A DNA stretch of 64,000 bases from Tupaia tana (Eukaryota; Chordata; Mammalia; Scandentia; Tupaiidae): positions 86,998,139 to 87,062,138 of the forward strand of contig JAKSZU010000009.1 in the NCBI GenBank assembly GCA_026018925.1, in the 5' to 3' direction. This document shows, in pieces, positions 17,541 to 58,523 of this stretch. Within the stretch, counting starts at the first letter, position 1, and each line of letters starts with the position of its first letter. A model generated the notes under the pieces. The model had not been told where the DNA came from. It made no database searches and saw only the letters and a program-made list of their open reading frames with translations. The position numbers were made by a program, and so were the translations under genes.

Positions 17541-18122
17541 CAAAACGAGGTTGCTCATAGAAAATGATTCTTATTGAAAGGGAGGCCCATACTGAGATGG
17601 AAACTGAACTTGAGCTGTGAAATATTGCTTTCATTGACTAAAAATAAAGATCTTCTGCTGAGACTTCTCCCTCCAGATTCATTTCTAGTGGCCTCCACAC
17701 ACTGAGTGTCTAGACAGGTCCAAGTGAACAGTCTCCAAACATCTAAATATACTTAGAGTCAGAATATTCCTCAATTCCCACTGAATCTGATGCACAAAGA
17801 GTGAAAAATGGAATGGAAGAGAGATTGCAGGTCACCTCCTCTTGGACGCCTCTGAATGCTCTGAATGAACTTCAAGAATTAGAAAGAAACGCACAATCCA
17901 TCAGATGACCAGAAATCACCAAAGATCATAAGAAATATGGGAAAACAAGAAAATGCCTCTCCTCCTAGGGAAATGAATAACTCCTCTTCATCCTCAGACA
18001 GTACAATGAAATTCATGGAAATGTCAGATAAAGAAATTAGAGTATTCATAGTGACTAAGCTAACAGATGGAAGAGCAGAGAGACAATTAACTGCAGAAGA
18101 GGCAGGAGAAAGGAGACTATGA

Positions 18123-19213
18123 GTTCTTTTTTTTTAAATTTCACTTTTATTTCTTTTTAAAATTTATTTATTATCATCATAATCTTGTTTATATTACATT
18201 GAATTGCATATAACTTTACAGTGTATTACATTGCTTTTCCCAGAGGGAATGTCATGTATGTCAGTCAGTACAGAGACATTAAAATTCTCCACTTCATCAT
18301 TTAATATCTTTTCATTGTTTTTCCCGATCATTATTATTATTATTATCCCAATTATTTTTTAACCAGTCAATCACTATTTCTCATTTTGCTTGTAAAAAGA
18401 CTTTACCCAACTTTAAATACTTCTCAGACCAATCCAGTTGAGAATACTATACACGTCATCATCAACAGGTAATAAACCATATCTGTGTCCTACTAATGTC
18501 ATGCCTCTCTATTTGTTCTCTTGCTATCTTTCTCTGTACTCTTCTTTTCTCCCCCCCCCCATTCCACACTGTCTTATCCTCATTAAGGATTTTCACTGTT
18601 TTTATGTCCTCCAATATTTTGCTCTGTACCATAGAGTGCAAATAGTCGGTATATAATAAGTGGATACATACAATATCTTTCTTTCATAGCCTGGCTTCAC
18701 TCAGCAATAGATCCTCCATAACCGACCACTTTCTATCAAATGCCAGGGTCTTGTTATTTTTTATGGCTAAGTAGTATCCATAGAGTATATATACTACACT
18801 TTCTCAATCCATTTATTCGTTTGTGGACACTTAGGTCGGTTCCGTGTCTTGGCAATCGTGAATAATGCTGCAATAAACATTGATGTGCAAGCATCAATGA
18901 GCATTATTCTGTCCTTTGGGTAGATACCTTGAAGTGGGATTGCTCGATCAAATGGTAGTTCTATTTGTAGATATTTGAGGAACCTCCATATTGTTCTCCA
19001 CAGTGGCTGAACAAGTTTACATTTCCACCAACAGTGTAGGACAGTTCCCTTTTCACCACATCCCCACCAACACTTATCACTTTTTATATTCTTAATCTTT
19101 GCCATTCTGACAGGGGTTAGGTGGTATTTCATTGTCGTTTTTATCTGCATTTCCCTTATGATGAGGGATGTTGAACATTTCCTTCTATGCTTTTTGGCTG
19201 TTTATATGTCTTC
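18123..19213 (-). mobile_element. 5'-truncated L1 3' end nested in the ORF1-only element
   Basis: Begins with a T-run after GAGTTC and shows antisense L1 3' UTR and ORF2 landmarks, including TCCACAGTGGCTGAACAAG and TTTTTGGCTGTTTATATGTC. The host ORF1 sequence is continuous on either side. I find no clear TSD. The open frame at 18794-19150 (-) is a remnant of the ORF2 C-terminus. Confidence 0.88.
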
Positions 19214-20654
19214 CTTGGAGGTGAGGAAATTCTTGCAAGTTCTGAAAGAGGAAATACACACCATAAAAAAGAATTAAATGGACCTGTTAGAGATGAAGGC
19301 TATAATACAAGATATCAAAGTCTCCCTTGAAAGTATTGAAAACAGTCTAGATCATACAGAAAATCAAATCTCAGATGTAGCAGATAGAATAACTGGCCTA
19401 TAAAAAATCCACCATAAACACTGAGAAAATTGCCCCCCCAAAAGATAGAATAATATACGAGAAATACTAGATACCATCAAACGTCCAAACATCTGGATAA
19501 TTGGTATCCCAGAAGGTGAAGAGACTCATAAGGGAATTGATAATCTATTGCATGAAATCCTGCAAGAAAACTTTCCAAACCTAGAGAGGTATTCAAAGAT
19601 CCAGCCCCAACAAATGCAAAGGACTCCAAATAGAATCAACCCAAGAAGATCTTCTCCAAGACATGTTATAGCCAGATTGACCAAAACCATGGGCAAAGAC
19701 AAGATACTAAGATTGGCAAGAATGAAACATCAAGTTACCTACAAAGGATATCCCATCAGGCTAACAGTGGACCTCTCACCAGAAACTATGGGAGCAAAGA
19801 AAGAATGGGATAATATATTCAAAGCATTAAAGGAAAAGCAATTTCAACCAAGAATACTGTACCTGGCAAGATTATTCTTCATATGGGAAGACAAGAACAT
19901 TCTCATATAAACAAAACCTGAAAGAATTTACCAACACCAAACCAACTCTCCAAAAAGTTCTGAAGGGATTACTATACCAGTAAAATTAAATATAGACACA
20001 CATAAATAGGAGTTCAAAAACTAAGAATATGATCAACTTAATTGTAGGGACAAGTCTGGAGTTGAATATTATATCCAAGAATTTAATTGGGAAGATCGAA
20101 CCAGAACAGAAGATAAAGTACATGAGACTGAACTGGTAAAATAGAATCCTATGACTTTTGACTAAAACATTGCTGATTTTCTTCTAGGCTTTTTTTTCCC
20201 AGTTTTAAGGATTTTTGTCCTGTCTTGAGCTGCTGATAGATTCATGTACCTACTGTTTGAACAGAATCCTAACCTGTTTCCTGGCTTTAAGTTTTAAGCA
20301 AAGCTCTCTTAGCATTTCTTTTATTTTGATTTATTAAAGCTAAAATTGCTTTTCTTGAAATTAAAAAAATATATTAAAAAACACCCATTTAATGACCATA
20401 GTAAGCTATATAGCATCAGCTAGGTGCTACTTTATAGTTAAATTCATTCTACTCAGTTTCATGCCCAAAATCAGACAGGTACTCACAGATATGTATATAT
20501 CAGCTGAACTTGCTATTGAAAGTAGTTAGATTATTTAAGAAATTTTGTGAATCAATAAAATTTAGGGGAAAAAAAGGAATGAAAAGCAACTGTAGACAAC
20601 AGAGATAGTGTGGGAGGAGGGTGGGAAATGGCAGAGGGTGAGAAATAGGAGGAA

Positions 20655-20660
20655 AAATAC

Positions 20661-20698
<38 letters not shown>
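20655..20698. repeat. (CA)n(TA)n microsatellite in the half-L1 3' UTR
   Basis: ACACACACACACATACATATATATA run, internal to the 3' UTR of the element at 17640-20855. Confidence 0.9.
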
Positions 20699-20964
20699 GA
20701 AACTAGAAATGGAAAATTATCAATGGTAACATGTATGACTAAGCCACTATGCAATATATTACTAATGGAAAATCACATTTTGTATGCTGTGACGATACTC
20801 AGTGAATGAATGTAAAATTAATTAAATTTTTTTAAATTAAGAAAAGAAAATGAAAATATATAGAGACATAATTTACCTATATTTAAGTTTTAAATATATT
20901 TAAAATATTAAATATGTGAAGTAATTTCCTAAAAAAAATTAATGAAAGGATACAGCTTAACATA

Positions 20965-24602: not shown

Positions 24603-26429
24603 GACTTTTTTTTCCCCATTCCTTTTTCCCCAACATTTCATTGATTCACAAATGTCTTAAATAATCTAACTACTTTCAATAGCAAGTTCAGCTGGTATGT
24701 ACATATCTGTGAATACATGTCTGACTTTAGGCATGAAACTGAGTAGAATGAATATACTATAAGGTAGCACCTACTGATGCTATATAGCTTACTATGGTCA
24801 TTAAATAGGTATTTTAATGTATTTTTTAATTTCAAGAAAAGCAGTTTTAACTTGAATAAATCATAGAAATGCTAAGGAAATTTGCTTAAAACGTAGAGCC
24901 AGGAAACAGGTTAGGATTCTGTTCAAATAGCAGGTACATGAATCTATCAGCAGCTCAAGACAGGACAAAAATCCCTAGAACCAGAAAACAAAGCCTAGAA
25001 GAAAATTAGCACTTTTGGACAAAAGTAATAAAATTCTATTTCACCAGTTTAGTCTCATGTACTTTATCTTCTGTTGTGGTTCGATCTTCCCGATTAAATT
25101 CTGTGATATAATATTCAACTCCAGACTTGTCCCTACGATTAAGTTGGCCATTTTCTTTTATTTGAATTCTTATTTCTGTATGTCTGTATTTAATATTCCT
25201 GTTATAGCATTCCCTTGATAACTTCTTGAAGATCTGGTCTGGTGTTGGTAAATTCTTTCAGGTTTTGTTTATCTGAGAATGTTCTTGTCTTTTCTTCCCA
25301 TATGAAGGATAATCTTGCCAGGTACAGTATTCTTTATTGAAATTACTTTTTCCTTAAGAATTTGAAAATATTTTCCCATTATTTCCTTGCTCACATTGTT
25401 TCCAATGAGAGGTCTGCTGTTACCCTGATAGGATATCCTTTGTAAGTAATTTGCCGTTTTTCTCTTGCCAATCTTAGTATCTTGTCTTTGTTTGTGGTTT
25501 TGGTCAATCTGGCTATAAAGTGTGTTGGAGAAGATATTCTTGGGTTGATTCTGTTTGGGGACCTTTGTATTTCTTGGAACTGCCTCTCTAGGTTTGGAAA
25601 GTTTCCTTGCAAGATTTCATGGAATAAATTATCCATACACTTATGAGTCTCTACAACTTTGGAGATACCAATTATCCAGATGTTTGGACGTTTGATGGCA
25701 TCTAGTATTTCTCGCATATTATTCTCATTTTGGGGGCAGTTTTCTCAGTCTTTGTGGTGGATCTTTTTAGGCCAGCGATTTTATCTTCTACATCTGAGAT
25801 TCGATTTTCTGTATAATCTAGTCTGCTTTTAATATTTTCAAGGGATATTTTGACTTCCTGTATTGTAAACTGCATCTCTAACAGGTCCATTTGATTCTCT
25901 TTTATGGTGTGTATTTCTTCTTTTAGATCTTGCAAGAATTTCCTCACCTCCTGGAACTCGTCAGCTTCTTTCTCCTGTGTCTTCTACAGTTCATTGTCTG
26001 TCTTCTCTTCCATCTCTGTTAGCTTCATCATTATAAATATTCTAAATTCTTTATTAAACATTTCCATGATTTCCATTGAACTGTCTGTGGGTGAAGGGGA
26101 ATTATTCTTTTCCCTTAGAAGAGAAGTATTTTCTTGCTTTCCCATATTTCTTGTGACCTTGTGGTGATTTCCAGTCATCTGATGGATGGTGTGTTTCTTC
26201 CTAATTCTTGAAGTTCAATCTGAGCATTCAGGAGCATACAGAAGGAGGTGATCAGGAATCTCTTTGCAGTTCCATTTTTATCCCTTTGTGCAGCAGATTC
26301 AGTCTATATTGAGTGATATGTTAACCCAAATAGTATTTAGATGTTTGTCTATGGTTCCCTTAGATCCCTCAAGAAACACAGTGAATGGAGATTGAGGAGC
26401 AGAGTGATGAGGTATAAGAAAAAGAAAAG

Positions 26430-26488
<59 letters not shown>

Positions 26489-26944
26489 AAATGAAGAAAG
26501 AGAGAGAAAAGGAAGGAAGGGAAAAAAGAGAAAACACAATAAAAAAAAAATGTGCTGCGCGCTCACACACTGCATAAGCACGCCACAAGAAATCACTAAT
26601 TCTCAGCAGCCATGGAGGAGTCTTCTTCTGAAGGTCTGCCCCTTGCCTCTCCTGGAGGTGAGAGGGAAAGGGGATTATTAGCAAGATAAGGAGGGGCTGA
26701 AAGTCAAGGGAATATTATACCTTAAAAATTTTTAAAAGGGAAAAATTATAAAAAAATAAGACAGAGAGAGAGGCAGAGAGAGACAGACAGAGAGAAGGCT
26801 AAAGAGGCTCCCTACCACTTGACTTTGGGGCTGGAGGCTGAATTATCAGTAGAAAAATCTTCATTTTTCTTTTTTCCCTGAAATCACTAGTCCTCAGCAG
26901 CCATGGAGGTGTCTTCTGAAGGCCTGCCCCTTGCCTCTCCCTCT
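24603..26944 (-). mobile_element. ORF1-only half-L1 (HAL1-type) element, antisense
   Basis: Read on the minus strand: 5' UTR with two promoter-monomer pieces (about 26944-26810 and 26660-26590), ORF1 starting at ATG 26178, ORF1 end near 25200, then the 3' UTR to about 24603. No ORF2 is present. ORF1 is broken into pieces at 25984-26178, 25702-25947 and 25391-25717 by frameshifts and stops. The pieces still show the coiled coil, the PNIWIIGI strand and the RNA-binding C-terminal part. Confidence 0.87.
26429..26484. repeat. (GA)n microsatellite in the half-L1 5' UTR
   Basis: Uninterrupted GA repeat of about 55 bases, flanked by A/G-rich sequence that also occurs, shorter, at the same place in the copy at 42620. 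Confidence 0.93.
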
Positions 26945-33031: not shown

Positions 33032-33422
<391 letters not shown>

Positions 33423-34764: not shown

Positions 34765-35660
34765 TTGTTTTACTTTCTTAATTTTACATTCTGTCATGGA
34801 CATCTTTATACATACAAAATGAATTTTCCCAGCATCAATGTACTGTGTATTAGTCCAGTCCAAAATATTACAATACACATCAACAGATAATTTTCCATTT
34901 CTGTGCTCATTAAATATTTTGCTTCTTTTTCTCCCTTGATTCCATCCTTCCCACCCACCACTTCATTTCCTACCCTCCTCCCACACTGTCTCTAGTATCT
35001 AGTTACCCTCCATGTTTTTATACCTTCCTATCTTTCAATTTCTGCCAGAGTGCTGACATTCAGTATATATTGAGTGGAGACATACATACAATGCCACTCT
35101 TTCATAGTCCAGCTTGCTTTGCATACTATTAAATCTTCCATATTCATCCACTTTATATCAAATGTCAGGGTACTATTGTTTTTATGGCTGAGTAGGAGTC
35201 CATAGATTATAGGTGCCACACTTTTTCTATACAGTCATCTATTCTTGGACACATTTGAGTTGATTCCATGGTTTAGCAATTGTGAATAAAGGTGCAATAA
35301 ACATGAATGTGCAAGTTTTTCCAACTGAGTGTATTCCTATCTTTTAGGTAGATACCCAGGAGTGGAATTGCTGGATCATATGGTAGTTCTATTTGTAGGT
35401 CTTTGAGGAACGTCCATATTGTTCTCCACAGTGGCTGTACTAATTTACATTCCCATCAACACTGTAGGAGAGTTCCCTTCTCACCACAGCCTTGTCAGTA
35501 CTTAATCATTCTTTAATTTTTTTTCTCTTAGCCATTCTGACAGCTCCCTTATGATAAGGTATGTTAAGCATTTTTTTCATATGGTTTATGGCAGTTCATA
35601 TGTCTTCCCTAGAGAGTTGTCTGTTCAGCTCATTAACCCATCTTTTAATTGGGTTGATTT

Positions 35661-35927
35661 TTTTTTTTTTTTTTTGGAGAGGTTTCCGCTATAGGGCGCG
35701 TGAGCTCACCAGACAGACAGAGAGAGACATAGAGACAGAAAGCGAGAAATCACCCCCCGGGGGTATGGTCACGCCGCAATCCCTTCTCCTCCATTTTCCT
35801 CTCGGGATCTTGGGCATGCACGCACATGCACCCGGTGTGAGTTTTAAGCCACAGGGTCTGGGACGTGAACCACGGTCGACTATGTGGGAGTCCAGTGAAA
35901 TAGCCATTACGCTAACTGCTGGTTCCC
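35661..35927 (-). mobile_element. CYN-like SINE, young, nested in L1 ORF2
   Basis: Body near consensus from GGAGAGGTTTCCGCTATAGG to GCTAACTGCTGGTTCCC. The host reads GGGTTGATTTTT before and GGTTTTTTTTGTT after, so the TSD is T-rich and not exactly defined. Confidence 0.93.
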
Positions 35928-36640
35928 AGGTTTTTTTTGTTATTTGTTTGTCTGTTTGTTTCGTGGTAAGCTGCTTGCATTCCCCATATATTTTGATTAT
36001 CAATCACTTATCTGAGGAGGATTTTGAAAATACATTCCCCCACACTGAGGGTTGCCCCCTCACTCTGATTATTGTTTTCTTTTGATATGATCCCATTTGT
36101 CAATTTTGGGGATTATTGCTTGTGATTTGGGGGTCTTATTTAAGAAGTCTTTGTCTACTCAGATGTCTCCAAATTTTTCTTTTGTGTTTTTCACCAATGG
36201 TTTTTGTAGTTTGAAATTTTATGTTTAAATCTTTGATCCATATTCAGTTGATTTTTATAATTGTGAGAGATAGGGGTCCAGTTTTATTTTTCTGCAGATA
36301 GATGTCCAGTTTTTCCAGCACCATTTTGAACAGATTTTCTTTTCCCCACTGATTATCTTCTGCCTATTGACAAAAATCAGTTGGCTATATTTTCATGTTT
36401 ATTCCTGGGTTCTTTACTCCGTTCCATTGGTCTATCCACCTGCATTTGTGCCAATACCATCCTGTTTTGATTATCACAGCTTTGTAATGTTTTGAAGTCA
36501 GGAAATATGATACCTCCTACTTTGGTCTTTTTGCACAGTATTGCTTTGGGCCTTTTATTATTCCAGACAAATTTTACAGTTGCTTTTTCTATTTCTCTGA
36601 GGAATATCTCTGCTAGTTTGATCAGAACTGAATTGAATTT

Positions 36641-36894
36641 GGGACCAGCCATTATCATAATGGCTATGCCACTGAACTCCCATGTAGCTGACCACAGTTC
36701 AAGTCCCGGACCCAGTGGCTTAAACTCACGTTGGGCGCGTGTGCATGCATGCCTGTGTGTGCCCAAGATCCCGAGAGGAGAATGGAGGAGAAGGGATTGC
36801 AGCATGGCCATCCCCCCCTGGGGGGTGATTTCTTGCTTTCTATCTCTCTATCTCTCTTTCTGGTGAGCACATGCGCCCTATAGCAAAAACCTCT

Positions 36895-36934
<40 letters not shown>

Positions 36935-36935
36935 A
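36641..36935 (+). mobile_element. CYN-like SINE with a long A-tail, nested in L1 ORF2
   Basis: TSD GAACTGARTTGAATTT, 16 bp with one mismatch, at 36625-36640 and 36936-36951. The A-tail is over 30 bases. Confidence 0.94.
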
Positions 36936-38105
36936 GAACTGAGTTGAATTTGTAGATTAATTTGGGTGGAATTGACAGTTTGATTATGTTAACTCTTCCA
37001 ATCCAGGAGCATGGAATGTCCTTCCAGATATTTGTGTTATTTTCAAATTATTTTTTGGTTTCTCATACTTTTCCTTGTAGGAGTCTTTGACTTCTTTTGT
37101 TAGGTTTATTCCTAGTTATCTTATAGTTTTTGTGGTTATTGTAAATGGGATTGCTTTCTTCAATTATTCCTCAATCTGTTTATTATTGGTCTATAGACAC
37201 GTTATAGATTTTTGTATGCTGATTTGTATTCGTCACTTCCAGGAGTTTGAATGTGTGCGGAGTGTGTGTGTGTGTGTGTGTGTGTGTTCTTTTGGATTTT
37301 CTGTGTATATAACCATGTCATCTACAAATAGAGATAATTTCATTTCTTCTTTCTTTACTCGAATACCTTTAATTTTATTCTCTTGTATAATTGCACTGGC
37401 TAGGACTTCCCATACTCTTATTGAAAAGGACTGGAAAAAGTAGGCAGTCTTGTCTTGTTCCACTTTTTAGTGCAAAAGTTTCAGCCTTTCCTCATTCAGT
37501 ATGATGTCAAATATGGGTTTGTCATAGATGGCTTTTATTGTGTTTAGGAACATCCCTTCTATGCCACTTTTTCTGAGAGTCTTACTCATGAAGGGATGTT
37601 GTATTTTATCAAATGCCTTTTCTGTACCAATTGTTATCAGTATGTGTTTTATCTTTCCTTCTGTTAATACATTCTATTACATTGATTGTTTTTCATATGT
37701 TGAACCACCCTTGAATCTCTGGAATAAAGCCTACCTGGTTATGGTGTATAATCTTTTTAATGTGTCATTAAATACAATTTGCTGGTACCTTGTTGATAAT
37801 ATTTGTATCTATATACATCAGAGATATTAGTCTGTAGTTTTCTTTTTGTTGTTGTTGTTATGTCCTTTTCTGTTTTAGAGGTGAGGGTGATGGAGGCTTC
37901 ATAAAATGCATTTAGAAGGGTTCCTGCCTTCTGGATCTTTAGAAATAATTAGAGTAGAATGGGGGTTAACTCTTCTTTAAAAATTTTGTAAATTCAGAAG
38001 TGAGGCTGTTGGGACCTGGGCTTTTCTTTATTGAGAGGCTATTTATTATTGATTCAGTCTCATTCCTTTATATTGATCTATTCAGGCTTTTAAATTATTT
38101 AACCT

Positions 38106-38287
38106 TGGGACCAGCAGGTGGCATGGTGGTTAAGGTGCTGAACACTCCCACATGGCCGACCATGGTTCAAGTCCTGGATCTGGTGGCTTACTTTCTCATT
38201 CTCTCTCTCTCTCTCTTTCTCTCTCTGGTTCAATTAAAAAATAAATGAATGAATAAATAAAATTAAATAAATAATTATTTTTAAAAA
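38106..38287 (+). mobile_element. Short-form CYN-like SINE, nested in L1 ORF2
   Basis: GGGACCAGCAGGTGGCATGG head, GTTCAAGTCCTGGATCTGG, (TC)n, CTCTCTGGTTCAATTAAAA end. TSD ATTMTTTAACCT at 38094-38105 and 38288-38299. Confidence 0.91.
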
Positions 38288-41200
38288 ATTCTTTAACCTC
38301 AGTAGATTATATGTGTGCAAAAATTTGTCCATCTCATCCAGGTTTTCTCTTTTTTTAGCATATAATAGCTCATAGTATTCTCTGGTGATCTTTTGTATTT
38401 ATGTTATATCTATTGTAATATTACCTGCTTCATTCTTGACTAGATTTATCTAGTTCCTTTCTCCATTCCTGTTCATTAGTCTAGCTAACACTGTGTTCAT
38501 TTTATCTTCTCAAAGAACCAACTTTTGGTTTTATTTTCTGTATAGTTTGTTTATTCTCTATTTTATTTCTTTCTGCTCAAATCTTTACTATTTCTTTTCT
38601 TCTGGTATTTTCAGGGATTTTTGTTGTCGTTTATCCAGTTCCCTGAGGTGTGTTAGGTCGTCTATTTGCCACCTTTCAGTTTTATCTTGTGAAAACTAAT
38701 TCCTATGAACATACCCCTTTATGACTGCTTTTGATATGTCCCATAAGTTATGAAAATTCATGTGTATAGTATCATTAGTTTCAAAGAAATTTTTTATTTC
38801 AGTCTTAATTTCTTCAGTGTTGTGAAATCATTCAGAAATAGGAGGTTTAGTTTCTATATTTTCATGGCTTTGTTTTTCTGCCATTAGTTTCAAGTTTAAT
38901 TCCACTGTGGTTGGAGTAGATGCTGGATATAGTTTCTATATCTTGGAATTTATGAAGACTTGTTTTGTGCCCTATCATGTGGTCAGTTGTAGAAAATGTT
39001 CCATATAAGGGTGAAAAAAATGTATATTTTATGGTTATTGGTAGAAAATTCTAGATGTCTGTCAAGTTCATTCGGTGTATGGTATCATTTAAATCTTGTA
39101 AGTCGTAGCTTAATTTTAGTCTAGATGATATGTCCAAGAGGAGAAAGTGGGGCATTGAGATCCCCAACAATTATTGTGCTGCAATCTATCTCTCCATTTA
39201 GATCTACCAAGTCTTTCTCATATTTGGTTACTCCAGTGTTGGGTACATAGATATTTATAACTATTATATCTTCTTGGCAAATTAGCCCTTTTAGTACTGT
39301 TTATTGTCCTTGTCTCTGAAGATTTTTGTATTTAAGTCTATTTTGTATTATATAAGTGTTGTGACTCCAGCCCTTTTCTGATTTCTGTTTGCATGTAATA
39401 TCTTTTTCCAGCCCTTCACTTTCTTTCTATGTGTGTCTTTACCCATGAGGTGCATTTCTTGGAGGCAGCAGATAGAGTGCTCCTATTTTCTATCCATTCA
39501 GTCAGTCTGTGTCTTTTAACTGGATAATATAATCCATTCACATTCAATGTTATTATTGATATTTACAGATTTATCCTTGTCATTTTGTTAGCCATTTTCT
39601 TCATTGTTTTTATTCTCTTATTTCTGTCTGTCTCTAATTTTTCTAATATAGTACTCCTTTCAGTACTTTTTGAAGAGCTGAATCAGTGTCAATGAATTCT
39701 TTCAGTGTTAGTTTATCTGAGAATTATTTTATTTGTTTTTCCCACTTGAAGTTATAGTATTCTTGGTTGCAGTTATTTTTCTTTTAATGTTTTAAATATT
39801 TCTTCATATTCTTCCCTTGCCTGCATTGCTCCAATTGCAAGGTCCTATGTCAGCCTATTATGATAATCTTTGCAATCTTTGTTTCTCTCTTGTCATTTTG
39901 AGAATCTTGTCTTTGTCTTTGATTTAGACCACTGTGGCTATGAAGTGCTGTGGAGAGGATCTTATGTTGATTCTTCTTGGGGTCCTTTGTATTTCTTGGG
40001 TCTGGATGTCTGGGTGTTTTTCTTCATTTGAAAAGTTTTCTGTACCTATTTCAGGGTCCACATTCCCTATGCCTTAGATTCTTCACCTTCTGGAGTACCT
40101 ATTATTTGGATATTTGGACACTTAATGGTGTCTTGTATTTCCTGTATGATGTCATCATTTTTATGTTTTAATTTTTTGGTTTTTTTTTTCATTGTTTTTG
40201 GTGGTTTTTGTCTATGTCTGAGATTTTGTCTTCCACATCAGAGATTCCATCTTATGCTTGGTCTAATCTGTTATTAATACTTCCAAGAGAGGTTTTGATT
40301 TCCTGCATTATAGTCTCCATCTCTAGAAGCTGTGTTTGATTCTTTTGTTTTGTTTTGTTTTTCATTTTATTGTATCAAATTATTTTTTTATTTAAATTTA
40401 TTTATTTGCATTCATTCACTGTACATCATTACAGCATACAAAATGAGATTTTCCATCCAGAGTACACTGTATATTGTCTCAATCAAGCACATCAACAAAC
40501 ATGTTATTGTCAGCAAATAATTTTCCATTTCTTGTTTTCTGTATGTTTTGCTTTTTTCCCCCCATCCTTGGTTCCCTATCTCTTACCCTCTGCCATCTAC
40601 CACTCTCCTCCCACACTGTCTCTGGTATCTATGTTTGCTTTCTATACTGTTTCCCCCCCCACATTTTATTGAATTACTAAAGACCTTAATTAAGCTAAAT
40701 ATTTTTATAGCAAACACAGCTGATATATACATTTCCATGAACACAAGTCTAACTTTATGCATCTTATAAAGTAGCACCTAGCTGGGCTATATATCTTACT
40801 TCAGTCATTGAATAATTTTTTTTCTGAAACTTTTTTTTTGTAACTTAATTTGTATTCTTTCCCTAAGCATCATCACAGCATACAAAATGTGATTTCCCAT
40901 CCAGAATATACTGCATAGTGACTTAATCATGCATATTATTAAAAATTTTCCATTTCTAGTTCTTAGAATTATTTTTACCCCTCTTTCTGACCCTCTGTTC
41001 TTTCCCAACCTCTTCTCAAACTATCTGTGGTGTCTACAATTGTCCTCCATTCCTTTCCCACCCACATTGTATTGATCACACAATTTCTTACATAATCTAA
41101 CTACTTTCAATGGTGAGTTCACTCATTATTATTAAGAAAACCAGTTTTAACTTAAATCAAGGAAATGCCAAAGAACTTTGCTTAAAGCCAGGAAACAGGT

Positions 41201-41377
41201 TAGGATTCTTTTCAAATGGTAGGTGCATGAACCTATCAGTCTCATGTACTTTATCTTCTGTTCTGGTTCAATGTTCCTGATTAAATTCTGGGATATAATA
41301 TTCAACTCCAGACTTGTCCCTACAATTAAGTTGACCACTTTCTTAATTTTTGAAGACTTATTTCCATGTGTCTGTAT

Positions 41378-42406
41378 TTAATTTTCCTGATATAGCACAC
41401 CCTTGAGAACTTCTTGGAGATCTGGTCTGGTCCTGGTAAATTCTTTCAGGTTTTGTTTATCTGAGAATGTTCTTGTCTTTTCTTCCCACATGAGAGATAA
41501 TTTTGCCAAGTACAGTATCCTAGGCTGAAATTGCTTCTCTCTTAACACTTTGAATATATTTTCCCATTCTTTCCTCACTCGCATTGTTTCCGATGAGAGA
41601 TCTGCTGCTAGCCTGGTGGGATGTCCGTTGTAGGTAGCTTGATGTTTTTCTCTTGCCAATCTTAGTATCTTGTCCTTGTCTGTGGTTTTGGTCAACCTGG
41701 CTATAATGTGTCTTGGAGAAGATCTTGTTGGGTTGATTCTATTTGGGGTCCTTTGTATTTCTTGGGACTGTATCTTCGAATGCCTCTCTAGGTTTGGAAA
41801 GTTTTCTTGCAGGATTTCATGGAATAGATTATCAATGCCCTTATGGGTCTCTTCACCTTCTGGAATACCAATTATCCGGATGTTTGGACGTTTGATGATA
41901 TCTAGTACTTCTCGTATATTTTTCTGAAATTTTTGGGCCATTTTCTCAGTCTTCGTGGTGGATATTTCTAGGCCAGCAATTTTCTCTTCTACGTCTGAGA
42001 TTCTATTTTCTGAATGATCTAGTCTGCTTTTAGTACTTTCAAGGGAAATTTTGACTTCCTGTATTATAGACTTCATTTTTAACAGTTCCGTCTGAGTCTT
42101 TTGTAAAGTGTGTAATTCCTCTTTTAGATCTTGCAAGAATTTCCTCATCTCCTGGAACTCGTCAACTTCTTTCTCCTTTCTCTTTAGCAGTTCATTATCT
42201 CTCTTCTCTTCCATCTCTGTTAGCTTCGACATTATGAATGCTCTAAATTCCTTATCAGATATTTCCATGATTTTCACCAAACTGCTTGTGGATGAAGAAG
42301 AGTTACTCTTTTTTCCCTTGAAGGAGAGGTATTTTCTTGCTTTCCCATATTTCTTGTGATCCGGTGGTGATTTCTTGTCATCTGATGGATGGTGTGTTTC
42401 TTTCAA
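41378..42406 (-). pseudogene. Half-L1 ORF1 gene (L1 ORF1p-like RNA-binding protein), nearly intact
   Basis: ORF1p of LINE-1 is a trimeric RNA-binding chaperone that coats the element's RNA. This frame encodes 342 residues, close to the 338 of human ORF1p. From residue 50 to about 165 it is charged and heptad-rich (EMEEKRDNELLKRKEKEVDE), a coiled coil. At 173-186 RPNIRIIGIPEGEE starts the RRM-like domain, RPRHIIARL-like residues at about 231-237 continue it, and 250-335 is the C-terminal domain ending FTRTRPDLQEVLKG. Compared with sister copies (canonical start ATGACAAGAAATCACC), a net +2 change in an A-run near 42311 puts the first ~33 residues out of frame; after that the frame is clean. So it is one indel from an open canonical ORF1. 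It lies in the element at 40347-43404. Confidence 0.85.
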
Positions 42407-43005
42407 ATTTTTGAAGTTCAGTCTGAATGTTCAGGAACAAGCAGGCAGAGGTGATCTATAATCTCTTTGCCATTTTGTTCTGATCGCTGGTGCAGCAGAT
42501 TAAGTAGATATTGAGGAATATTTTAACCCTAGTAGTATTTGGATGTTTAGCTACCATGCTCTTAGATCTGTCTAAAAACACATTAAATGGATATTGGAGA
42601 GTGGAGAGACAAGAAAAAGGAAAATGAAAGAGAGAGAGAGAGAAACAAAAGGAAAAAAAGACAAAAAAACGAAAATAATTGTAATTACGGTTTTTCTTTT
42701 TTTAAAAAAAATCACAAAATAAAAAACCGCACAGCACGGTGTGTGCCGCGCAAAATACCTAGTTCGCAGGAGCCATGAGAAATCTTCTTCTGAAGGCCTG
42801 GCCTCTCCTGCCTGGGTGGGAGGACCAGAGTGATAATTAACTAGCTAAAAGGTGGAGCTGAGAGTAAGAGAAAAACTTTATCTTTAAAAAAAAATGTAAA
42901 AAAGAAAAATTACAAATAAAATAGGAAGACAGAAGCAGGGAGAGACAGAGACAGAGACGCAGAAACAGAGATAGAAGGCCAGGCAGTGGGGGGCTGTCTA
43001 CCACA

Positions 43006-43404
43006 CTAGCTTATTTGCTGGAGGCTGAATTATCAGTAGAAAATCTTCATTTCTCATGTGCCCTGAAATACCTAGTTTGCAGGAGCCATGAGGAATCTTC
43101 TTCTGAAGGCCTGGCCTCTCCTGCCACGCTAGCTTGTTTGCTGAAGGCTGAATTATCAGTAGAAAATCTTCATTTCTTGTGTGCCCTGAAGTACCTAGTT
43201 CGCAGGAGCCATGAGGAATCTTCTTCTGAAGGCCCAACCTCTCCTGCCTAGTTCGCAGGAGCCATGAGGAATCTTCTTCTGAAGACCTGGCCTCTCCTAC
43301 CACGCTAGCTTGTTTGCTGGAGGCTGAATTATCAGTAGAAAAGCTTCATTTCTCATGTACCCTGAAATACCTAGTTTGCAGGAGCCGTGAGGGATCTTCT
43401 TCTC
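43006..43404 (-). repeat. Tandem promoter monomers of the half-L1 5' end (123-bp type)
   Basis: CTAGCTTGTTTGCTGGAGGC recurs at 43006, 43129 and 43305. The period is 123 bp; the 176-bp step contains an extra 53-bp partial copy (GTTCGCAGGAGCCATGAGG). Each unit also holds GAATTATCAGTAGAAAATC and AATCTTCTTCTGAAGGCC. As in mouse L1, such 5' tandem units are probably the promoter. Confidence 0.88.
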
Positions 43405-43573
43405 TTTGATTCTTTTTTATAATGGCTATCTCCTTCATGTCATGGAAGGACTTCCTCATCTCCTGGAGTTGGTTGTTTTCTCTTGTATCTCATTTATTTT
43501 TGCCACTATGATTATTCTAAATTCTTTTTTTTTTTTTTTTTTTTTTACATTTTGGTGGTTTTCTGGTTTTTTT

Positions 43574-46223
43574 CCCCTCTTTTTTAGAATTAATTTATTT
43601 ATATACATTCACTGTATATCAATACAGTATACAAATGAGATATTCCATGCAGAATACATTGCATATTGGCTCAATCAAGGATATTACCATACATGTTATT
43701 GTCAATGAGTAATTTTCTACTTCTTGTTTCTTATATATTTTGCTTCCCCCCGCCTTGATTCCCTACCTTTCACCCTCTGCCATTTCCTCCCCTTCTCCCA
43801 CACTGTCTCTGATATCTACAGTTGTTTTCCATGCCTTCTTTCACATTTTATTGATTCACTGAATATCCTAATAAATTTTAAAATTTTCAATAGCAAGCAC
43901 AGCTAATATATACATATCCATGAACATATGTCTGACTTTAGGCATAAACCTCAGTGAGTAAAGTGAACATACTATAAAGTGGCACCTAGCTGGGGCTATA
44001 TAGCTTATTGCAGTCATTAAATAGGTATTTTTAAAAAATAATTATTTTTATTTAACTTTATTTATTCGCTTATTTTAGAGTGACAGAGTGAGAAAGAGAG
44101 AAAAGTGAGAAAGTAAGCCACCAGGTCCAGGCCATGTGGGAGTTGCCATGTGGGAGTCCAGCTCTGTTAATCACCACACCACCTGCTAGCCCAAATAGAT
44201 ACTTTAATGTATTTTTTAATTTAAATAAAAACAATTTTAGTTTTAATTGACCAAAATAAAAAAATGTTGGGATAAATTTGCTTAAAACTTAAAGCCAGGA
44301 AAAAGGATAGGATTCAGTTCAAATAGTAGGTAGATGAACCTATTAACATGTCAAGAGAAGACAAAATCCTTAAATACAGAAATCAAAGCATCAAAGAAAA
44401 TCAGTAATGTTTTAGTCTAAAGTAAAAAATTCTATTTCACTAGTTCAGTCTCATGTAATTAATATCTCTTCTATTAATTTTGCAGTATTACTATGGTCCA
44501 ATCTTTCCATTTACACTCTGGAAGTTAACATTCAACTCCAGACTTGTCCCTACCATTAGGCTGGCCAGTCTCTTGGCTGTTTTTTGTACTCTTATTTCTG
44601 TGTGTCTGACTTTAGTTTTCTTAGTATAGCACTCCTTTCAGCACTTCTTGTAGAGCCGTTCTGGTGGTGGTAAATTCTTTCAGGTTTTGTTTATCTGAGA
44701 ATATTTTTGTCTTTTCTTCCCATATGAAAAATAATCTTGCTGAGTATACTATTATTTGTTGAAATTGTTTTTCAATTAACATTTGGATATATTTTCCCAT
44801 TTTTTCCTTGCTTGCATTATTTCCAATTAGAGGTCCAATGTTTGCTTTATGAGATATCCTTTGAAAATAACTTGATGTTTCTCTCTTGCCAAATTTAGTA
44901 TCTAGTCTCTGTCTGCGGTTTTGCTCAATCTGGCTATGATGTACCTTGGGGAAGATATTCTTAGGTTGATTCTATGTGGAGTCCTTTGTATTTTTTGGGT
45001 CTAGATATTTGAGTGCCTCTCTAGATTTGGAAAGTTTTCTTCCAGGATTTCATGGAATAGATTATCCATGCCATTATTAGTTTGTTTACCTTCTGGAATA
45101 CCAATGATCTGGATATTTGGGTGTTTAATGGTATCTAGTATTACTCATTGTTTTGGGTTATTTTCTCATTCTTGGTGAATTTTTCTAGGTCAGAGGTTCT
45201 ATCTTCTACATCTGAGATTTGATCTTCTGTATGATCTAATCTGCTTTTGGATATTTTCAAGGGAGATTTTGATTTCCTGTATTACAGGCTTCATCACTAG
45301 CAATTCCGTTTGATTTGTTTTTATGATGTGTATCTCCTCCTTCAGGTTGTGCAAGAACTTCCTCACCTCTAGAGTCCATTGTCTCTTTTCTCCTGCATTG
45401 TATGGAGTTCATTGTCTCTCTTTTCTTGCATCTTTGTTAGCTTTGTCACTACGAATATTCTAAATTCTTTATCGGACATTTCCACGAGTTCCCTTGTATT
45501 GTCTTTGCAGGATGAGGAGTTATTCTTTTCCCTTGGGGGAGAGATATTTTCTTGGTTTTTCATATTTCTTGTGCCTCTGTGGTGGTTTCTGATCATCTGA
45601 TGGATTATACATATTTTTCTAGTTTTTGGAGTTAAATCTGAGCATTCAGAGGAATGCAGGAAGAAGTGACCAGCAGTTTCTAAACAGTATATTTTTTCTC
45701 CCTTTGCACAGCTGATTCAGTGGAAATTGAGGATTAATCTGACCTTAAAAGTATTCAGATATTTTGCTACTGAGCACCCAGACCTGTCTAGAGAATTAGT
45801 ATGCAAAAGCCAAGCAGATGAATGAGAAAGGTAAAAAGAAAAGGAAAAGTGAAAAAAAAAAGAGAACAAACAAGACAGAAACTATAAAAAATTTTTTTTT
45901 TATTGAGCAAAAAAATGAGAGCTGCCTGGTACACAAGCACACCGCACAAATGCTGTTGCTCACAACTGAGATATAGATTGCAGCTGATTGGTTTGTCCTA
46001 TGGGTGCAGGGCGACAGGTAAGAATTATCAAGACCAAAGAGCAGCAGAGAGCTAAGGAGTTTAAAAATTTTAAAAATAATAATAAAAGAGAGAGAGAGAG
46101 ATGGAGAGAGAGAGAGAGAATAAATAGGGTGTTTTAACCTGGCTCCTGTCTAGATCTGGGGGCCAGGAGGGTGAAGTCTGGGCAGAAGGTCTTCAATGAT
46201 CCTAATCCCTGAATGGTGCCCCA
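43574..46223 (-). mobile_element. ORF1-only half-L1 (HAL1-type) element, antisense, second copy nested in the same L1
   Basis: On the minus strand: one partial 110-bp-type promoter monomer (near 46223-46140), 5' UTR with a (GA)n run, ORF1 from about 45596 to about 44640 (frameshifted, with stops), then 3' UTR to 43574. The imperfect TSD is GTTTTCTGGTTTTTT at 43558-43572 against GTTTCTGTTTTTT from 46224. The L1 host sequence joins across it: comparison with the sense L1 at 62490-62580 shows the same order. No ORF2. Confidence 0.85.
44036..44191 (-). mobile_element. Short-form CYN-like SINE, nested in the half-L1 3' UTR
   Basis: TTTATTTAACTTTATTTATTC tail, AGAAAGAGAGAAAAG, CAGGTCCAGGCCATGTGGG, CACCACCTGCTAGCCC. 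Host AAATAGGTATTTTTA and AAATAGATACTTTAA flank it. A 10-base unit (CCATGTGGGA) is duplicated. Confidence 0.83.
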
Positions 46224-46245: not shown

Positions 46246-46513
46246 TCTTTTTTTTTTTTTTTGAGAGATTTTTCACTATAGGGCGCGTGCGCTCGCCAGA
46301 CAGACAGAGAGACAGAGAGATAGAAAGCGAGAAATCACCCCCCAGGGGGGATGGTCACGCCACAATCCCTTCTCCTCCATTCTCCTCTCAGGATCTTGGG
46401 CACACACGCACACGCGCCCGGCGTGAGTTTTAAGCCACCGGGTCCGGGACGCGAACCGCGGTCGACTACATGGGAGTCCAGCGACATAGCCATTACGCTA
46501 ACTGCTGGTTCCC
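46246..46513 (-). mobile_element. CYN-like SINE, young, nested in the L1 5' part
   Basis: TSD CTGTTTTTTATTTT, 14 bp, at 46228-46241 and 46514-46527. The body is very near consensus. Confidence 0.94.
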
Positions 46514-50866: not shown

Positions 50867-53542
50867 TTCTTTTAATTTAAATTTATTTATTTATATTCAT
50901 TCACTGTACATCATTACAACATACAAAATGAGAATTTCCATCAAGAGTACACTGTATATTGGCTCAATCAAGCACATCAGCATGCATGTTATTGTCAATA
51001 AATAATTTTCCATTTCTTGTTTCCTATATGTTTTGCTTTTTTTTCCTCATTCTTAATTCCCTATCTCTTACCCTTTGCCATCTCCCACTCTCCTCCCACA
51101 CTGTCTCTGGTATCTATGTTTGCTTTCTATACTGTTTTCCCCCACATTTTATTGAGTCTCTAAAGATCTTAATTAATCTAAATATTTTCTTTTTTTTTTT
51201 TTTTGGAGAGGTTTTTTGCTACAGGGCGTGTGCACTCACCAGACAGACAGAGAGAGACAGAGAGACAGAAAGCGAGAAATCACCCCCCAGGGGGGATGGC
51301 CACGCGGCAATTCCTTCTCCTCTGTTCTCCTCTTGGGATCTTGGGCATGCACGCACACGCGCCCGGCATGAGTTTTAAGCCACCGGGTCCGGGACGTGAA
51401 CCGTGGTCGACTACATGGGAGTCCAGTGACATAGCCATTACACTAACTGCTGGTCCTGGTCTAAATATTTTCATAGCAAGCACAGCTGATAAATACATTT
51501 CTATGAACACAAGTCCAACTTTAGGCATAAGCCTCAATAAGTAGAATGAACATCCTATAAAGTAGCACCTAGCTGGGGCTATATATCATACTGCAGTCAT
51601 CAAATAGGTATTTTTTTTCTGAAACTTTTTTCAACTTAATTTACATTCTTTCCCTAAGCATTGTCACAGCATACAAAATGTGATTTCCCATCCAGAATAT
51701 ACTGAATAGTGGCTTAATCATGCATATTATTATTATAAATTTTCCATTTCTAGTTTCTAGAATTTTTTTACCCCTATTTTTGACTTCTGTATTTTCCCAC
51801 CCTCTTCTCACACTGTCTCTGGAGTCTACAATTGTCTTCCATTCCTTTCCCACCTACATTGTATTGATAACACACTTTCTTAAATAATCTAACTACTTTC
51901 AATAACGAGTTCACTTGATACTATTAAGAAAACTAGTTTTAACTTAAATCAAAGAAATGCTAAGGAACTTTGCTTAAAGCCAGGAAACAGGTTAGAATTG
52001 TGATCAAATGATAGGTGCATGAACCTATCCATATCTCAAGACAGGACACAAATCCTTACAACCACATAGCAAAGTCTACAAGAGAATCAGCAATATTTTA
52101 GTCAAAAATCATAAAATTATACTTCACCAATTCAGTCTCATGCACTTTATTTTCTGTTGTGATTCAATTTTCCCGATTAAATTCTGGGATATAATATTCA
52201 ACTCCAGACTTCTCCCTACACTTAAGTTGGGCACTCTTTTAGTTCTTAAACTCTTATTTCTGTGTGTCTGTTTTTAATTTTCCTGATGTAGCACTCCCTT
52301 GAGAACTTCTTAGAGATCTGGTCTGGTGCTGGTAAATTCTTTCAGGTTTTGTTTATCTGAAAATGTTCTTGACTTTTCTTCCCACATGAAAGATAGTCTT
52401 GCCAGGTACAGTATTCTTGGCTGAAATTGCTTTTCTCTTAACACTTTGAATCTATTTTCCCATTCTTTCCTCGCTCGAATTGTTTCTGATGAGAGGTCTG
52501 CTGTTAGCCTGATGGGATATCCTTTGTAGGTAACATGATGTTTTTCTCTTGCCAATCTTAGTATCTTGTCTTTGTGGTTTTGGTCAGTCTGGCTATAATG
52601 TGTCTTGGAGAAGATCTTCTTGGGTTGATTCTATTCGGAGTCCTTTGTATTTCTTGGGACTGGATCTTCTAATGCCTCTCTAGGTTTGGAAAATTTTCTT
52701 GCAGGATTTCATGGAATAGATTATCAATGCCCTTATGGATCTCTTCGCCTTCTGGAATGCCAATTATCCAGATGTTTGGATGTTTGATGATATCTAGTAG
52801 TTCTCGTATATTAATTTCAAATTTTTGGGCAATTTTCTCAGTCTTTGTGGTGGATTTTTCTAGGCCAACAATCTTCTCTTCTATGTCTGAGATTCTATTT
52901 TCTGTATGATCTAGTCTGCTTTTAATACTTTCAAGTGAGATTTTTGACTTCCTGTATTATAGTCTTCATCTCTAACAGGTCCCTTTGATTCATTTTTAAA
53001 GTGTGTAATTTCTCTTTTAGATCTTGCAAGAATTTCCTCACCTCCTGGAACTCCTCAACTTCTTTCTCCTTTCTCTTCAGCAGTTCATTGTCTCTTTTCT
53101 CTTCCATCTCTGTTAGCTTCGCCATTATGAATGTTCTAAACTCTTTATCAGATTTCCTTTAAACTGCTTGTGGGTGAAGAGGAATTATTCTTTTCCCTTG
53201 GAGGAGAGGTATTTTCTTGCTTTCCCATATTTCTTGTGGTCCTGTCATCTGATAGGTGGTGTGTTTCTTCCTAATTCTTGAAATTCAATCTGAACATTGA
53301 GTAGCAAGCAGAAATAGATGATCTGGAATCTCTCTGTCTTTCTGTTGTGATCACTTTGTGCAGTAGATTCAGTAGATATTGAAGAATTTGTTAACCCTAA
53401 TAGTATTTGGATGTTTAGCTACAGTGCCCTTAGATCCATCAAGCTAGCTTGTTTGCTGGAGGCTGAATTATCAGTAGAAAATCTTCATTTCTCTTGTACC
53501 CTAAAATGACTATTTCACAGGAGCCATGACGAATCTCACACT
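50867..53542 (-). mobile_element. ORF1-only half-L1 (HAL1-type) element, antisense
   Basis: 12-bp TSD GGGCAGTTTCTT at 50855-50866 and 53543-53554. On the minus strand: one promoter monomer of the 123-bp type (53540-53440), 5' UTR, ORF1 (53160 region to about 52290, broken; pieces at 52931-53125 and 52310-52555), then the same doubled 3' UTR as the copy at 40347. A SINE sits in the distal 3' UTR module. No ORF2. Confidence 0.92.
51190..51459 (-). mobile_element. CYN-like SINE, young, nested in the half-L1 3' UTR
   Basis: TSD TCTAAATATTTTC, 13 bp, at 51177-51189 and 51460-51472. The body is near consensus. Confidence 0.94.
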
Positions 53543-53659: not shown

Positions 53660-55647
53660 GCTTTTTTATTTTTCCACAATTTATTGATTCACAAAAGATC
53701 TTAATCTGAAAACTTTCAACAGCAAGTGCAGCTGATGTATATATACATATGAACACATATCTGACTTTAGCCATAAAACTCAGTGAGTAGAATGAACATA
53801 CTATAACATACCTCTAGCTGGGGCTCTATAGCTTACTGCAATCATTAAATAGGTATTTTTTATGTATTTTTAATTTCAAGAAAAACAGTTTTTGTTTTAA
53901 TAGATCAAAATTTTAAAATATTAAGAGACATTTGCTTAAAGCTTAAAACCAGGAAAAAGGTTACGATTCAGTTCAAACAGTAAGTAGATGATCCTATCAA
54001 TACTTCAGTAGAAGACAAAAATCCTTAGGTCTGGACAACAAAACAGAAAAAAATCAGTAATTATTTAGTCATAAAGTTCTATTTTGCAAGGTAAACTCTT
54101 ATGTAATTACTCTCTCTTCTGTTGAATTTACAGTGTAACTGTGGTCAAATCTTTCCGTTTAAATTCTAGAAGTTAAGATTCAATGTTATTATTGATTTTC
54201 CAGCCATTCCTACCACTAAGTTAGCCATTGTCTTGGTTATTTTTTGTGTGTCTGGCTTTAGTTTTCCTGGTATAGCACTCCCTTCAGCACTTTTTGGAAA
54301 GCTGGTCTGGTGTTGGTAAATTCTTTTAGGTTTTGTTTATCTGAGAATGTTTTTATCTTTTCTTTCCATATGAATGATAGTCTTGCTGGTTATAGTATTT
54401 TTGTTTGAAATTGTTTTTCACTTAACACTTTGAATATATTTTTCCATTCTTTCTTTACTTGCCTTGTTTCCGATGAGAGGTTCGATGTTTACTTTATGGT
54501 ATATTCTTTGAAAGTAACTTGATGTTTCTCTCTTGCCAGTCTTAGTATCCAGCCTTTGTCTGTGGTTTTGGTCAATCTGGCTATGATGTGCCTTAGGGAA
54601 GATCTTCTTTGGTCGATTCTATATGGGGTCCTTTGTATTTCTTGGATCTGGATATTTGAATGCCTGTTTAGGTTTGGAAAGTTTTCTTCCAGGATTCATG
54701 GAATAGATTATCAATGTCCTGATTAGTTTCTTTACTTTCTGGGATACTGATGTTCCAGATGTTTGGGTGTTTAATGGTATCCACTATTTCTTGTATATTA
54801 TTCTCATTTGGGGGGATTATTTTCTCAGGCTTTTTGGAATTTTTCTAGGTCAGAGGTTCTGTCTTCTACATCTGAGATTTGATTTTCTGCATGATCTAAT
54901 CTGCTTTTAATACTTTCAAGGGAGATTTTGATTTCTTGTATTACAGCCTTCATCTCTAACAATTATGATTCTTTTTTATGGTGTGTATTTCTTCTTTCAG
55001 ATCATGTAGGAACTTCCTCACCTCCTGGAATGCATTGTGTCTTTTCTCCTGCATCTTCTGGAGTTTGTTGCCTCTCTTCTCTTACATCTCTGTTAGCTTT
55101 GTCACTACGAATATTCTAAATTCTTTATCTGACATTTCCACCAATTCCATTGTATTGTCTATCGAGGATGAGGAGTTATTCTTTTCCCTTGGAATAGAGA
55201 TATTTTCTTGGCCTCTCATATTTCTTGTGCCTCTATAGTGGTTTCTGGTCATCTGATGGATTTTATGTTTTTTCCTAGTGTTTGTTGTTAAATCTGAGCT
55301 TTCAGAGTCATGCAGGAGGTGTTCTAGAATCTCTCTGCAGTTTCATTTTGCCATTTTTGTGCAGCAGATTCCATGGGAATTGAGGATTACTCTGACCCTA
55401 CTACATCTTGGGATCAAGAGGGTGAAGTCTAGGGAGAAAATTTTCAGTTTTCCTAGTCCCTGAAATAGGACACTCAGAGCTCAAATGTAGATAGCTTGTG
55501 ATTGGCCTTTCTAGATCTTGGGGTTAGGAGGGTGAAGTCTGGGCAGAAAATCTTCAGTTGTCCTAGTCCTTGAAAGGGGCCACTCAGAGCTCAAATATAG
55601 ATAGTTTGTGATTGGCCTTCCTAGATCTTGGAGTCATGAGGTGAACC
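53660..55647 (-). mobile_element. ORF1-only half-L1 (HAL1-type) element, antisense, 110-bp monomer type
   Basis: 10-bp TSD TATATGAATG at 53650-53659 and 55648-55657, in an old sense L1. On the minus strand: two 110-bp promoter monomers (55647-55401), 5' UTR, a decayed ORF1 (about 55240-54290), then a single 3' UTR. No ORF2. Confidence 0.9.
55401..55640 (-). repeat. Tandem promoter monomers of the half-L1 5' end (110-bp type)
   Basis: The CTAGATCTTGGGGTTAGGAG unit starts at about 55401, 55511 and 55621, exactly 110 bp apart. Each holds GGGTGAAGTCTGGGCAGAAA and GATAGCTTGTGATTGGCC. Unrelated by eye to the 123-bp units at 43006. Confidence 0.88.
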
Positions 55648-56866: not shown

Positions 56867-58523
56867 TTTAAAATAAACTTTAATTTTAAGAAAGGCAGTT
56901 TTAGCTTTAATAAATCAAAATAAAAAAATGTTAAGAGACTTTTGCTTAATACTTAAAGCCAGGGAACAGGTTAGGATTCTGTTTGAATAGTAGGTACATA
57001 GACTTGTCCACAACTTAAGAAAAGACAAAACTCCTTAACACTAGAAAACAAAGCATAGAAAGTCAGTAATGTTTTAGTCAAAAGTCATAAAATTCTATTT
57101 CACCAGTTCAAGGTCATGTACTTTATCTTCTGCTGTGGTCTGATCTCTGTTTAAATTCGGAAGATAACATTCAACTGTGTACTTTTCCCTACCATTAAGT
57201 TGACCATTTTCTTAGCTGTTTTAGAACTCTTATTTTTGTGTGTCTGACTTTAACTTTCCTGGGATAGCACTCCCTGCAGAACTTCTTGGAAAGCTGGTCT
57301 GGTATTGGTAAATTCTTTCAGGTTTTGTTTATCTGAGAACATTCTTGTCTTTTCCCATATGAAGGATATTCTTGCTGGGTATAGTATTCTTGGTTGAAAT
57401 TGTTTTTCACTCAACACTTTGAATATATTTTCCCATTCTTTCCTTGCTTGCATTGTTTGCAATGAGAGGTCTGCTGTTAGCCTGGTGGGATATACTTTGT
57501 AAGTAACATGACATTTCTCTCTTGCCTGTCTGAGTATCTTGTCTTTGTCTATGTTTTTGGTCAATCTGGCTATAATGTGGCTTGGAGAAGATCTTCTTGG
57601 GTTGATCTTATTTGAGGTCCTTTGTATTTCTTGAGTCTGGATCTTTGAATGCCTCTCTAGCTTTGGGAAGTTTTCTTCCAGAATTTCATGGACTAGATTG
57701 TCAATACATTTATTAGTCTCTTCACCTTCTGGGATACTGATTATCCGGATGTTTGGATGTTTAATGGTATTTTGTATTTCTCATATATTATCTTCATTTT
57801 TGGGGGGCTATTTTCTCAGTCTTCATGGTGGATTTTACTAGTCCAGCGATTCTGTCTTCTACATCTGAGATTCTATTTTCCGTATGATCTAGTCTGCTTT
57901 TAATACTTTCAAATAAGGTTTTGACTTCCTGTATTATATAGCCTTTATCTCCAACAGTTCCATTTGACTCTTTTTTATGGTGTGTATTTCCTCTTTCTGC
58001 TCTTGCAAGAAATTCCTTACCTCCTAGGATACATTGGCTTTTTTCTTCTGGTGTTCATTGTCCCTCTTCTCTTTCATCTCTGTTAGTTTTGTCATTGTGG
58101 ATACTCTAAATTCTTTATCAGAAATTTCCATGATTTCCATTGTACTGTCTGTGGACGAAGAGGAGTTGTTCTTTTCCCTAGGGGGTGAGGTATTTTCTTG
58201 GTGTTGCATATTTCTTGTGACCCTGTAGTGATTTATAGTCACCTGCTGGATTATCCATTTCTTCCTAAATTCTAGAAGATCAATCTGAGTGATTAGAGGC
58301 ACACAAGAGGACGTGGTCTGCAAACTCTTTGGTGTTGCATTTTTCTCCCTTTGTGACACAGATTCAGTGGGAGTTGAGGAGTATGAGGACCTAAATAGTA
58401 TTCAGATTTGGCAATTTTTCATTTAGACTTGTCTAGACACTCAGTAGGTGGAAGCAGGGTAGATTTTCATCTTCATTGCTCTTGTCTCTGAAATCACTAG
58501 ATCTCAGCTCTCATGGTGGACCA
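56867..58523 (-). mobile_element. ORF1-only half-L1 (HAL1-type) element, antisense, short 3' UTR
   Basis: TSD TGATTATA(TA)TTTTTAAAT, with one small indel, at 56848-56866 and 58524-58541. On the minus strand: partial 5' UTR, ORF1 (ATG region near 58228 to stop at about 57250, frameshifted; the longest clean part is 57250-57564, the C-terminal domain), then a 3' UTR of only about 380 bp. It lacks the distal 3' UTR modules of other copies. Confidence 0.86.

Follow-up and report, generated by a model that had tools for sequence, protein, structure and literature searches.

Half-L1 elements (HAL1s) have been described as derivatives of L1 that carry ORF1 only and that originated several times in mammals (PMC5753468). 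Accounts of these elements report target-site duplications (TSDs), a poly(A) tail and reliance on the reverse transcriptase (RT) and endonuclease of L1 (PMC5322556), and both guinea pig and marmoset are recorded as having young HAL1 families (PMC3183009). In guinea-pig HAL1, the coding capacity of ORF1 is reported to have been retained for about 29-44 million years, which was read as a sign of a double requirement, for ORF1p in cis and for ORF2p in trans (PMC3627910). We analyzed a 64-kb stretch of Tupaia tana contig JAKSZU010000009.1 (hereafter the window), in which an initial annotation had proposed a complete ORF1-only element of 3,058 bp. Its premise that half-L1 elements of this design occur in some mammals agrees with these sources (PMC5753468, PMC5322556, PMC3183009). 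The focal element is very probably a copy of a mammalian HAL1 family, i.e., an L1 derivative with its own 5' untranslated region (5'UTR), ORF1 and 3'UTR that lacks ORF2. This conclusion is based on its TSD, its empty site, the identity of its ORF1, six further copies, an L1-like 3' end and an ORF1 tree whose internal branches carry more synonymous changes than expected. The family resembles described HAL1s in containing ORF1 only, in its A-rich tail and TSDs, in its derivation from L1, in its presumed use of the L1 RT and endonuclease in trans and in the long retention of ORF1. It may differ from the named HAL1s, which were compared by description only, in having a 5'UTR built of 53- and 70-bp repeats and two tandem units resembling the L1 3' end.

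The focal element is framed by a TSD whose two copies are identical at 12/12 bp, as initially annotated, and tolerating one mismatch lengthens it by just two bases on either side. When the flanks were rejoined at the TSD to reconstitute the empty site, they aligned to an L1-type ORF1 with 558 identical positions over 816 columns and 51 gap positions in total. No gap fell at the junction, the closest one being 3 nt long and 12 nt away. Because the rejoined flanks yield a single ORF1 alignment without a gap at the junction, the focal element is a clean insertion into an older L1-type ORF1 (the host element is referred to as L1 E). As far as these marks show, the insertion would have occurred by target-primed reverse transcription. 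It is hardly credible that the 12-bp repeat arose by chance and that the segment is a rearranged piece of L1 rather than an insertion. The flanks are themselves L1 ORF1, so similarity between the ends is less surprising than it would be in unique DNA, but joining them at the repeat restores the ORF1 alignment through the junction. Moreover, the inner ends of the segment correspond to the 5' end and the A-rich tail of the HAL1-like family, and the 5' end of a second copy (copy B), which is flanked by a different TSD, lies at most about 10 nt from that of the focal element.

Similarity to ORF1 was found at nine places in the window: the focal element, copies B, C, D, F, G and H, the target L1 E, and an isolated fragment. 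Seven of these present the design of the family (Table 1). In 7/7 copies (L1 E and the fragment excluded), the ORF1 stop runs into a common 3'UTR with a spacing too small to accommodate ORF2, and the post-stop 3'UTR of the other copies aligned to that of the focal copy over 200 to 255 positions with 11 to 30% difference. Copy B is 91.5% identical to the focal copy in aligned ORF1, and its TSD matches at 16/17 bases; a SINE-like (short interspersed element) insert breaks its 3'UTR at about 51190-51460. Both the focal element and copy B were inserted as units with a TSD and an A-rich tail. The direct joining of ORF1 to this 3'UTR, which had been expected of further copies, was therefore recovered in all seven, two of which are bounded by TSDs.

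Two side observations concern these copies. The L1 inside copy C at 18127-19216 consists of the ORF2 C-terminus and the 3'UTR, so that the nesting is opposite to that of the focal element. The isolated ORF1-like fragment (62638-62804) is 73% identical to the focal ORF1 and was left out of both the L1 and the HAL1 counts. A 12-bp pair with one mismatch at the ends of copy D was rejected as a TSD because the two searched stretches were long.

Table 1. Coordinates of the focal element, its host L1 and the other family copies in the window (~, approximate)
Feature	Position	Strand	Basis or remark
Focal HAL1-like element, 3,058 bp	40347..43404	-	TSD bounds, flank alignment
TSD copy, 3' side of the element, TTTGATTCTTTT	40335..40346	.	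exact match to 43405-43416
TSD copy, 5' side of the element, TTTGATTCTTTT	43405..43416	.	exact match to 40335-40346
Focal 3'UTR and A-rich tail	40347..41377	-	contains a tandem pair of L1-3'-end-related units, ~40384-40705 and ~40831-41121
Focal ORF1 region, family ATG to stop	41378..42348	-	2-nt frameshift in an A-run soon after the ATG
Open frame, 342 codons	41378..42406	-	L1 ORF1p RBD-like (RNA-binding) and dsRBD-like (double-stranded RNA-binding) domains
Lone 53-bp-type unit	42758-42798		in the focal 5'UTR
Focal 5'UTR tandem repeats	43001..43403	-	units of ~53 and ~70 bp (123-bp monomer, one additional 53-bp unit)
Host L1 E, downstream of the insertion, with SINE-like inserts	34765..40346	-	assigned from order, strand and spacing of pieces
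L1 E, 3'UTR	34765-35211	-
L1 E, ORF2 piece	within 36377-36811	-
L1 E, ORF2 piece	37467-37673	-
L1 E, ORF2 piece	39416-39562	-
L1 E, end of ORF1	39617-40346	-
L1 E ORF1, part upstream of the insertion	43417..43532	-	rejoined-flank alignment
Copy B, TSD-bounded, ORF1 only	50867..53537	-	TSD 50850-50866 and 53538-53554
Copy C	17703..20829	+	interrupted ~18127-19216 by a 5'-truncated L1, minus strand
Copy D, 5'UTR, ORF1 and 3'UTR	24616..26929	-
Copy F, ORF1 and 3'UTR	43533..45790	-
Copy G, ORF1 and 3'UTR	53674..55403	-	ORF1-adjacent part by MAFFT, 30% different from focal; BLAST match further on
Copy H, ORF1 and start of 3'UTR	56880..58331	-

The initial annotation had described an element without an RT region, and we did not detect ORF2 in the focal copy. 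A translated search for ORF2 remnants, which covered the 3' parts of 4/7 copies (focal, B, C and D) and used the window's own decayed L1 pieces as the only reference, detected none; the best translated match beyond the stretch that is homologous to L1 3' ends had an E value of 0.002 and lay on the opposite strand. The absence of ORF2 between ORF1 and the 3' end is thus indicated for 7/7 copies by spacing and alignment and for 4/7 by the translated search, and the ORF2 with endonuclease and RT that characterizes an autonomous L1 was not found. What the window shows therefore supports the proposal of an ORF1-only family derived from L1. These results also bear on the origin of the copies, which might each have arisen separately, by deletion or splicing, from full-length L1s carrying this ORF1 and 3'UTR. 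They would then not represent a self-propagating family, and the selection on ORF1 would be that of the parent L1. Spliced human L1 RNAs are indeed reported to retrotranspose (PMC5860796). We consider such an origin improbable, since the ORF1-3'UTR junction is common to all seven copies, as is the sequence just after the stop (pairwise difference up to 33%), and since the searched 3' parts yielded no ORF2 remnant.

The 3'UTR of the focal element is ~1 kb long and terminates in the A-rich tail. Approximately 100 bp near 41236 are missing from it; this segment is kept in B, C, D, F and H, and also in G, where it aligns less cleanly. The final ~240 nt of the family 3'UTR before the tail matched the 3' end assigned to L1 E with 68.9% identity over 251 columns (E value 9.5e-17), and the same distal segment in copy B matched another L1-type 3' end with 69.6% identity (E value 3.7e-22). 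When the focal copy and B were compared with the five L1-type 3'UTRs of the window, three aligned with the family 3' end for more than 100 nt (66-70% identity) and two for 27-30 nt only, as expected for an L1-derived family with a shared 3' end. Even the best of these values is far below the 84-91% observed between the focal copy and B, which again argues against repeated derivation from such L1s. The upstream unit of the 3'UTR is related to the same segment, such that the family carries two L1-like 3' ends in tandem. The two units (focal 40384-41121) also occur in copies B and C. This doubling and the kinship to L1 fit descent from an L1 with loss of ORF2. Likewise, use of L1 ORF2p in trans by the family would fit the shared 3' end, the A-rich tail and the TSDs.

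The initial layout of a repeat 5'UTR, an ORF1 frame, a 3'UTR and an A-rich tail was recovered, but the description of the element as complete was too strong given that the start of its ORF1 is frameshifted. The 53-bp and ~70-bp units of the 5'UTR stand in mixed order, a pair of them making up the 123-bp monomer. These tandem repeats occupy the position of a promoter, and their annotation as promoter monomers remains a prediction from the sequence as regards function. The 342-codon frame opens with a TTG inside the 5'UTR, and its earliest in-frame ATG is codon 47, at 42268. The family ATG, at 42348 on the minus strand, is conserved in 7/7 copies. Starting from this ATG, the focal copy encodes 24 codons and then a stop, owing to two extra A in the A-run that are absent from the other six copies. 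Because of this frameshift, the focal copy itself is probably a dead end. The domain-bearing part of its ORF1 is nonetheless open: Pfam identified Transposase_22 (7.9e-29) and Tnp_22_dsRBD (2.2e-19) in 41378-42406 (minus strand), and a PDB search matched six distinct L1 ORF1p-type sequences, one of them L1TD1, with a best value of 1.7e-58. The annotated ORF1 gene thus holds as an L1-type ORF1 frame supported by Pfam and PDB, with its family ATG out of frame through the two extra bases.

We estimated dN/dS (the ratio of nonsynonymous to synonymous rates) for all pairs of eight ORF1 copies, L1 E included, dropping codons with a gap or a stop in either copy; codons before the A-run were excluded from this and the branch analyses. 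The test, which had been suggested along with the initial annotation, gave a point estimate below 1 in 28/28 pairs within the window, and the bootstrap interval was also below 1 in 27 of them, the exception being C-D (0.48-1.18). The estimate for the focal copy and B was 0.30 (0.18-0.49). Out-of-frame controls, run for the seven focal pairs only, gave intervals spanning 1 in 13/14 cases. On a maximum-likelihood ORF1 tree with L1 E as the root (nodes supported at 89-100), we then compared the observed fraction of synonymous changes with the value of 0.271 expected from random changes at a transition to transversion ratio of 2:1 on the focal frame. The 241 codons free of gaps in all eight copies were used, and the E branch and the root branch were excluded. 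Synonymous changes made up 35/81 changes on the internal HAL1 branches (43% versus 27% expected, p = 0.0013) and 81/289 on the terminal branches (28%, p = 0.38; internal versus terminal, Fisher p = 0.014). This excess on internal, not terminal, branches suggests that ORF1 was under selection in the source lineage and that copies decay after insertion. Selection on the ORF1 of a parent L1 would yield the same dN/dS, which is a point in favor of independent L1 deletion products. Distances in ORF1 and in the 3'UTR were correlated across the seven copies (r = 0.66, exact permutation p = 0.008), as expected if both parts travel together, and this argues against L1 ORF1 having been joined to this 3'UTR repeatedly.

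Alternatively, ORF1 could be an unused relic, the copies having been moved entirely by ORF1p and ORF2p of L1 in trans. The broken ORF1 start of the focal copy would agree with this, and in culture ORF1p supplied in trans is reported to mobilize, at low level, L1 RNA whose own ORF1p is truncated at the N-terminus (PMC5860796). Such a scenario is unlikely, however, in view of the contrast between internal and terminal branches and of the dN/dS of 0.30 between the two closest copies.

Several results weigh against an ORF1 kept by selection within a coherent HAL1 family. The focal-D control at shift 2 was also below 1 (0.52 [0.35-0.83]), the focal branch alone shows a weak synonymous excess (15/38, p = 0.066), and three changes touching stop codons fall on internal branches. 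The correlation between ORF1 and 3'UTR distances is moderate: in the 3'UTR, the focal copy differs from D by 11.4%, from C by 12.9% and from B by 12.2%, although B is its clear sister in ORF1. This partial discordance would be compatible with separate deletion products of L1 and leaves room for some exchange between lineages. The TSD search was without result for copies C and F and gave no convincing TSD for D. Finally, both the number of copies and the lack of full-length L1s with the same 3'UTR are judged from 64 kb only.

The HAL1 reading can be put as a sequence of steps. RNA polymerase II (Pol II) would transcribe the element from its repeat-built 5'UTR, and the element's own ORF1p would coat this RNA in cis. 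The L1-like 3' end and the A-rich tail may then draw L1 ORF2p, which would nick the target and, by target-primed reverse transcription, copy the RNA in trans. The element would keep ORF1 because a Pol II transcript requires ORF1p in addition to ORF2p, as reported from cell culture (PMC2666806), and because self-made ORF1p may be most effective on the RNA that encodes it. For the retention of ORF1, the reason for which the initial annotation had considered open, a proposal has thus already been published in the account of guinea-pig HAL1 (PMC3627910), and our internal-branch result agrees with it. We also considered that the copies represent a long-lived HAL1 lineage apart from the resident L1, with its own repeat promoter, a doubled L1 3' end and its own selection on ORF1, i.e., a parasite of L1 in its own right and not a by-product that arises again and again. 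The ORF1 of the family differs by about 31% from that of L1 E, and a doubled 3' end perhaps improves competition for ORF2p. We regard this extended scenario as possible but doubtful.

The host of the focal insertion differs from the family in content. Past its ORF1, L1 E presents small pieces of L1 ORF2 that match the endonuclease N-terminus (E value 1.4e-05) and later regions (E values 1.6e-17 and 2.7e-10). In a PDB search, three ORF2-like pieces of the window were named L1 ORF2p, and a Pfam search of these three returned nothing. Judging from their order, strand and spacing, the pieces assigned to E likely belong to one L1, and the focal element thus appears to have landed in the ORF1 of an L1 that continues into ORF2 pieces. 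L1 E resembles the family in ORF1 (69% identical where aligned) and in its 3' end (about 69%). In contrast, its pieces match the endonuclease and RT regions of ORF2, none of which were found in the HAL1-like copies.

Other repeats were also observed in the window. A SINE with a tRNA-like head occurs in many copies (e.g., 9622-9889, 27456-27730, 46248-46509 and 48128-48418), together with what appears by eye to be a second, related SINE type; a SINE core pattern had no match in viral contigs. Such SINEs, which look tRNA-derived, together with L1 and the HAL1-like copies suggest a mammalian source. Two arrays of 8-bp tandem repeats (8176-8332 and 33005-33155) represent one repeat family. No match to Rfam was obtained in the window at the gathering threshold. 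Relatives of ORF1 (300 residues) were sought in viral and genome contig collections, which gave 5 and 37 pattern matches, respectively, none of them confirmed.

The family can also be set beside SpIREs (spliced L1 insertions), which are likewise retrotransposed L1 RNAs missing a part. SpIREs are described as losing parts of the 5'UTR or of the 5'UTR and ORF1 and as generally being evolutionary dead ends (PMC5860796). They presumably retain ORF2. Unlike these, the family in the window gave rise to at least seven copies, whose branch lengths differ. It is most likely a HAL1, a type already known in mammals, and its doubled L1 3' end, its repeat 5'UTR and its L1 host site are points of mild interest. 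The window offers a compact natural case in which ORF1-only copies stand beside an L1 of the kind on which they probably depend, with one inserted inside the other. As the difference between internal and terminal branches suggests, selection maintains the RNA-binding protein of a non-autonomous element, and this supports the view of ORF1p as a protein that works chiefly on the RNA encoding it. A testable idea of how such parasites may compete for the L1 enzyme is, in turn, provided by the doubling of the L1 3' end.

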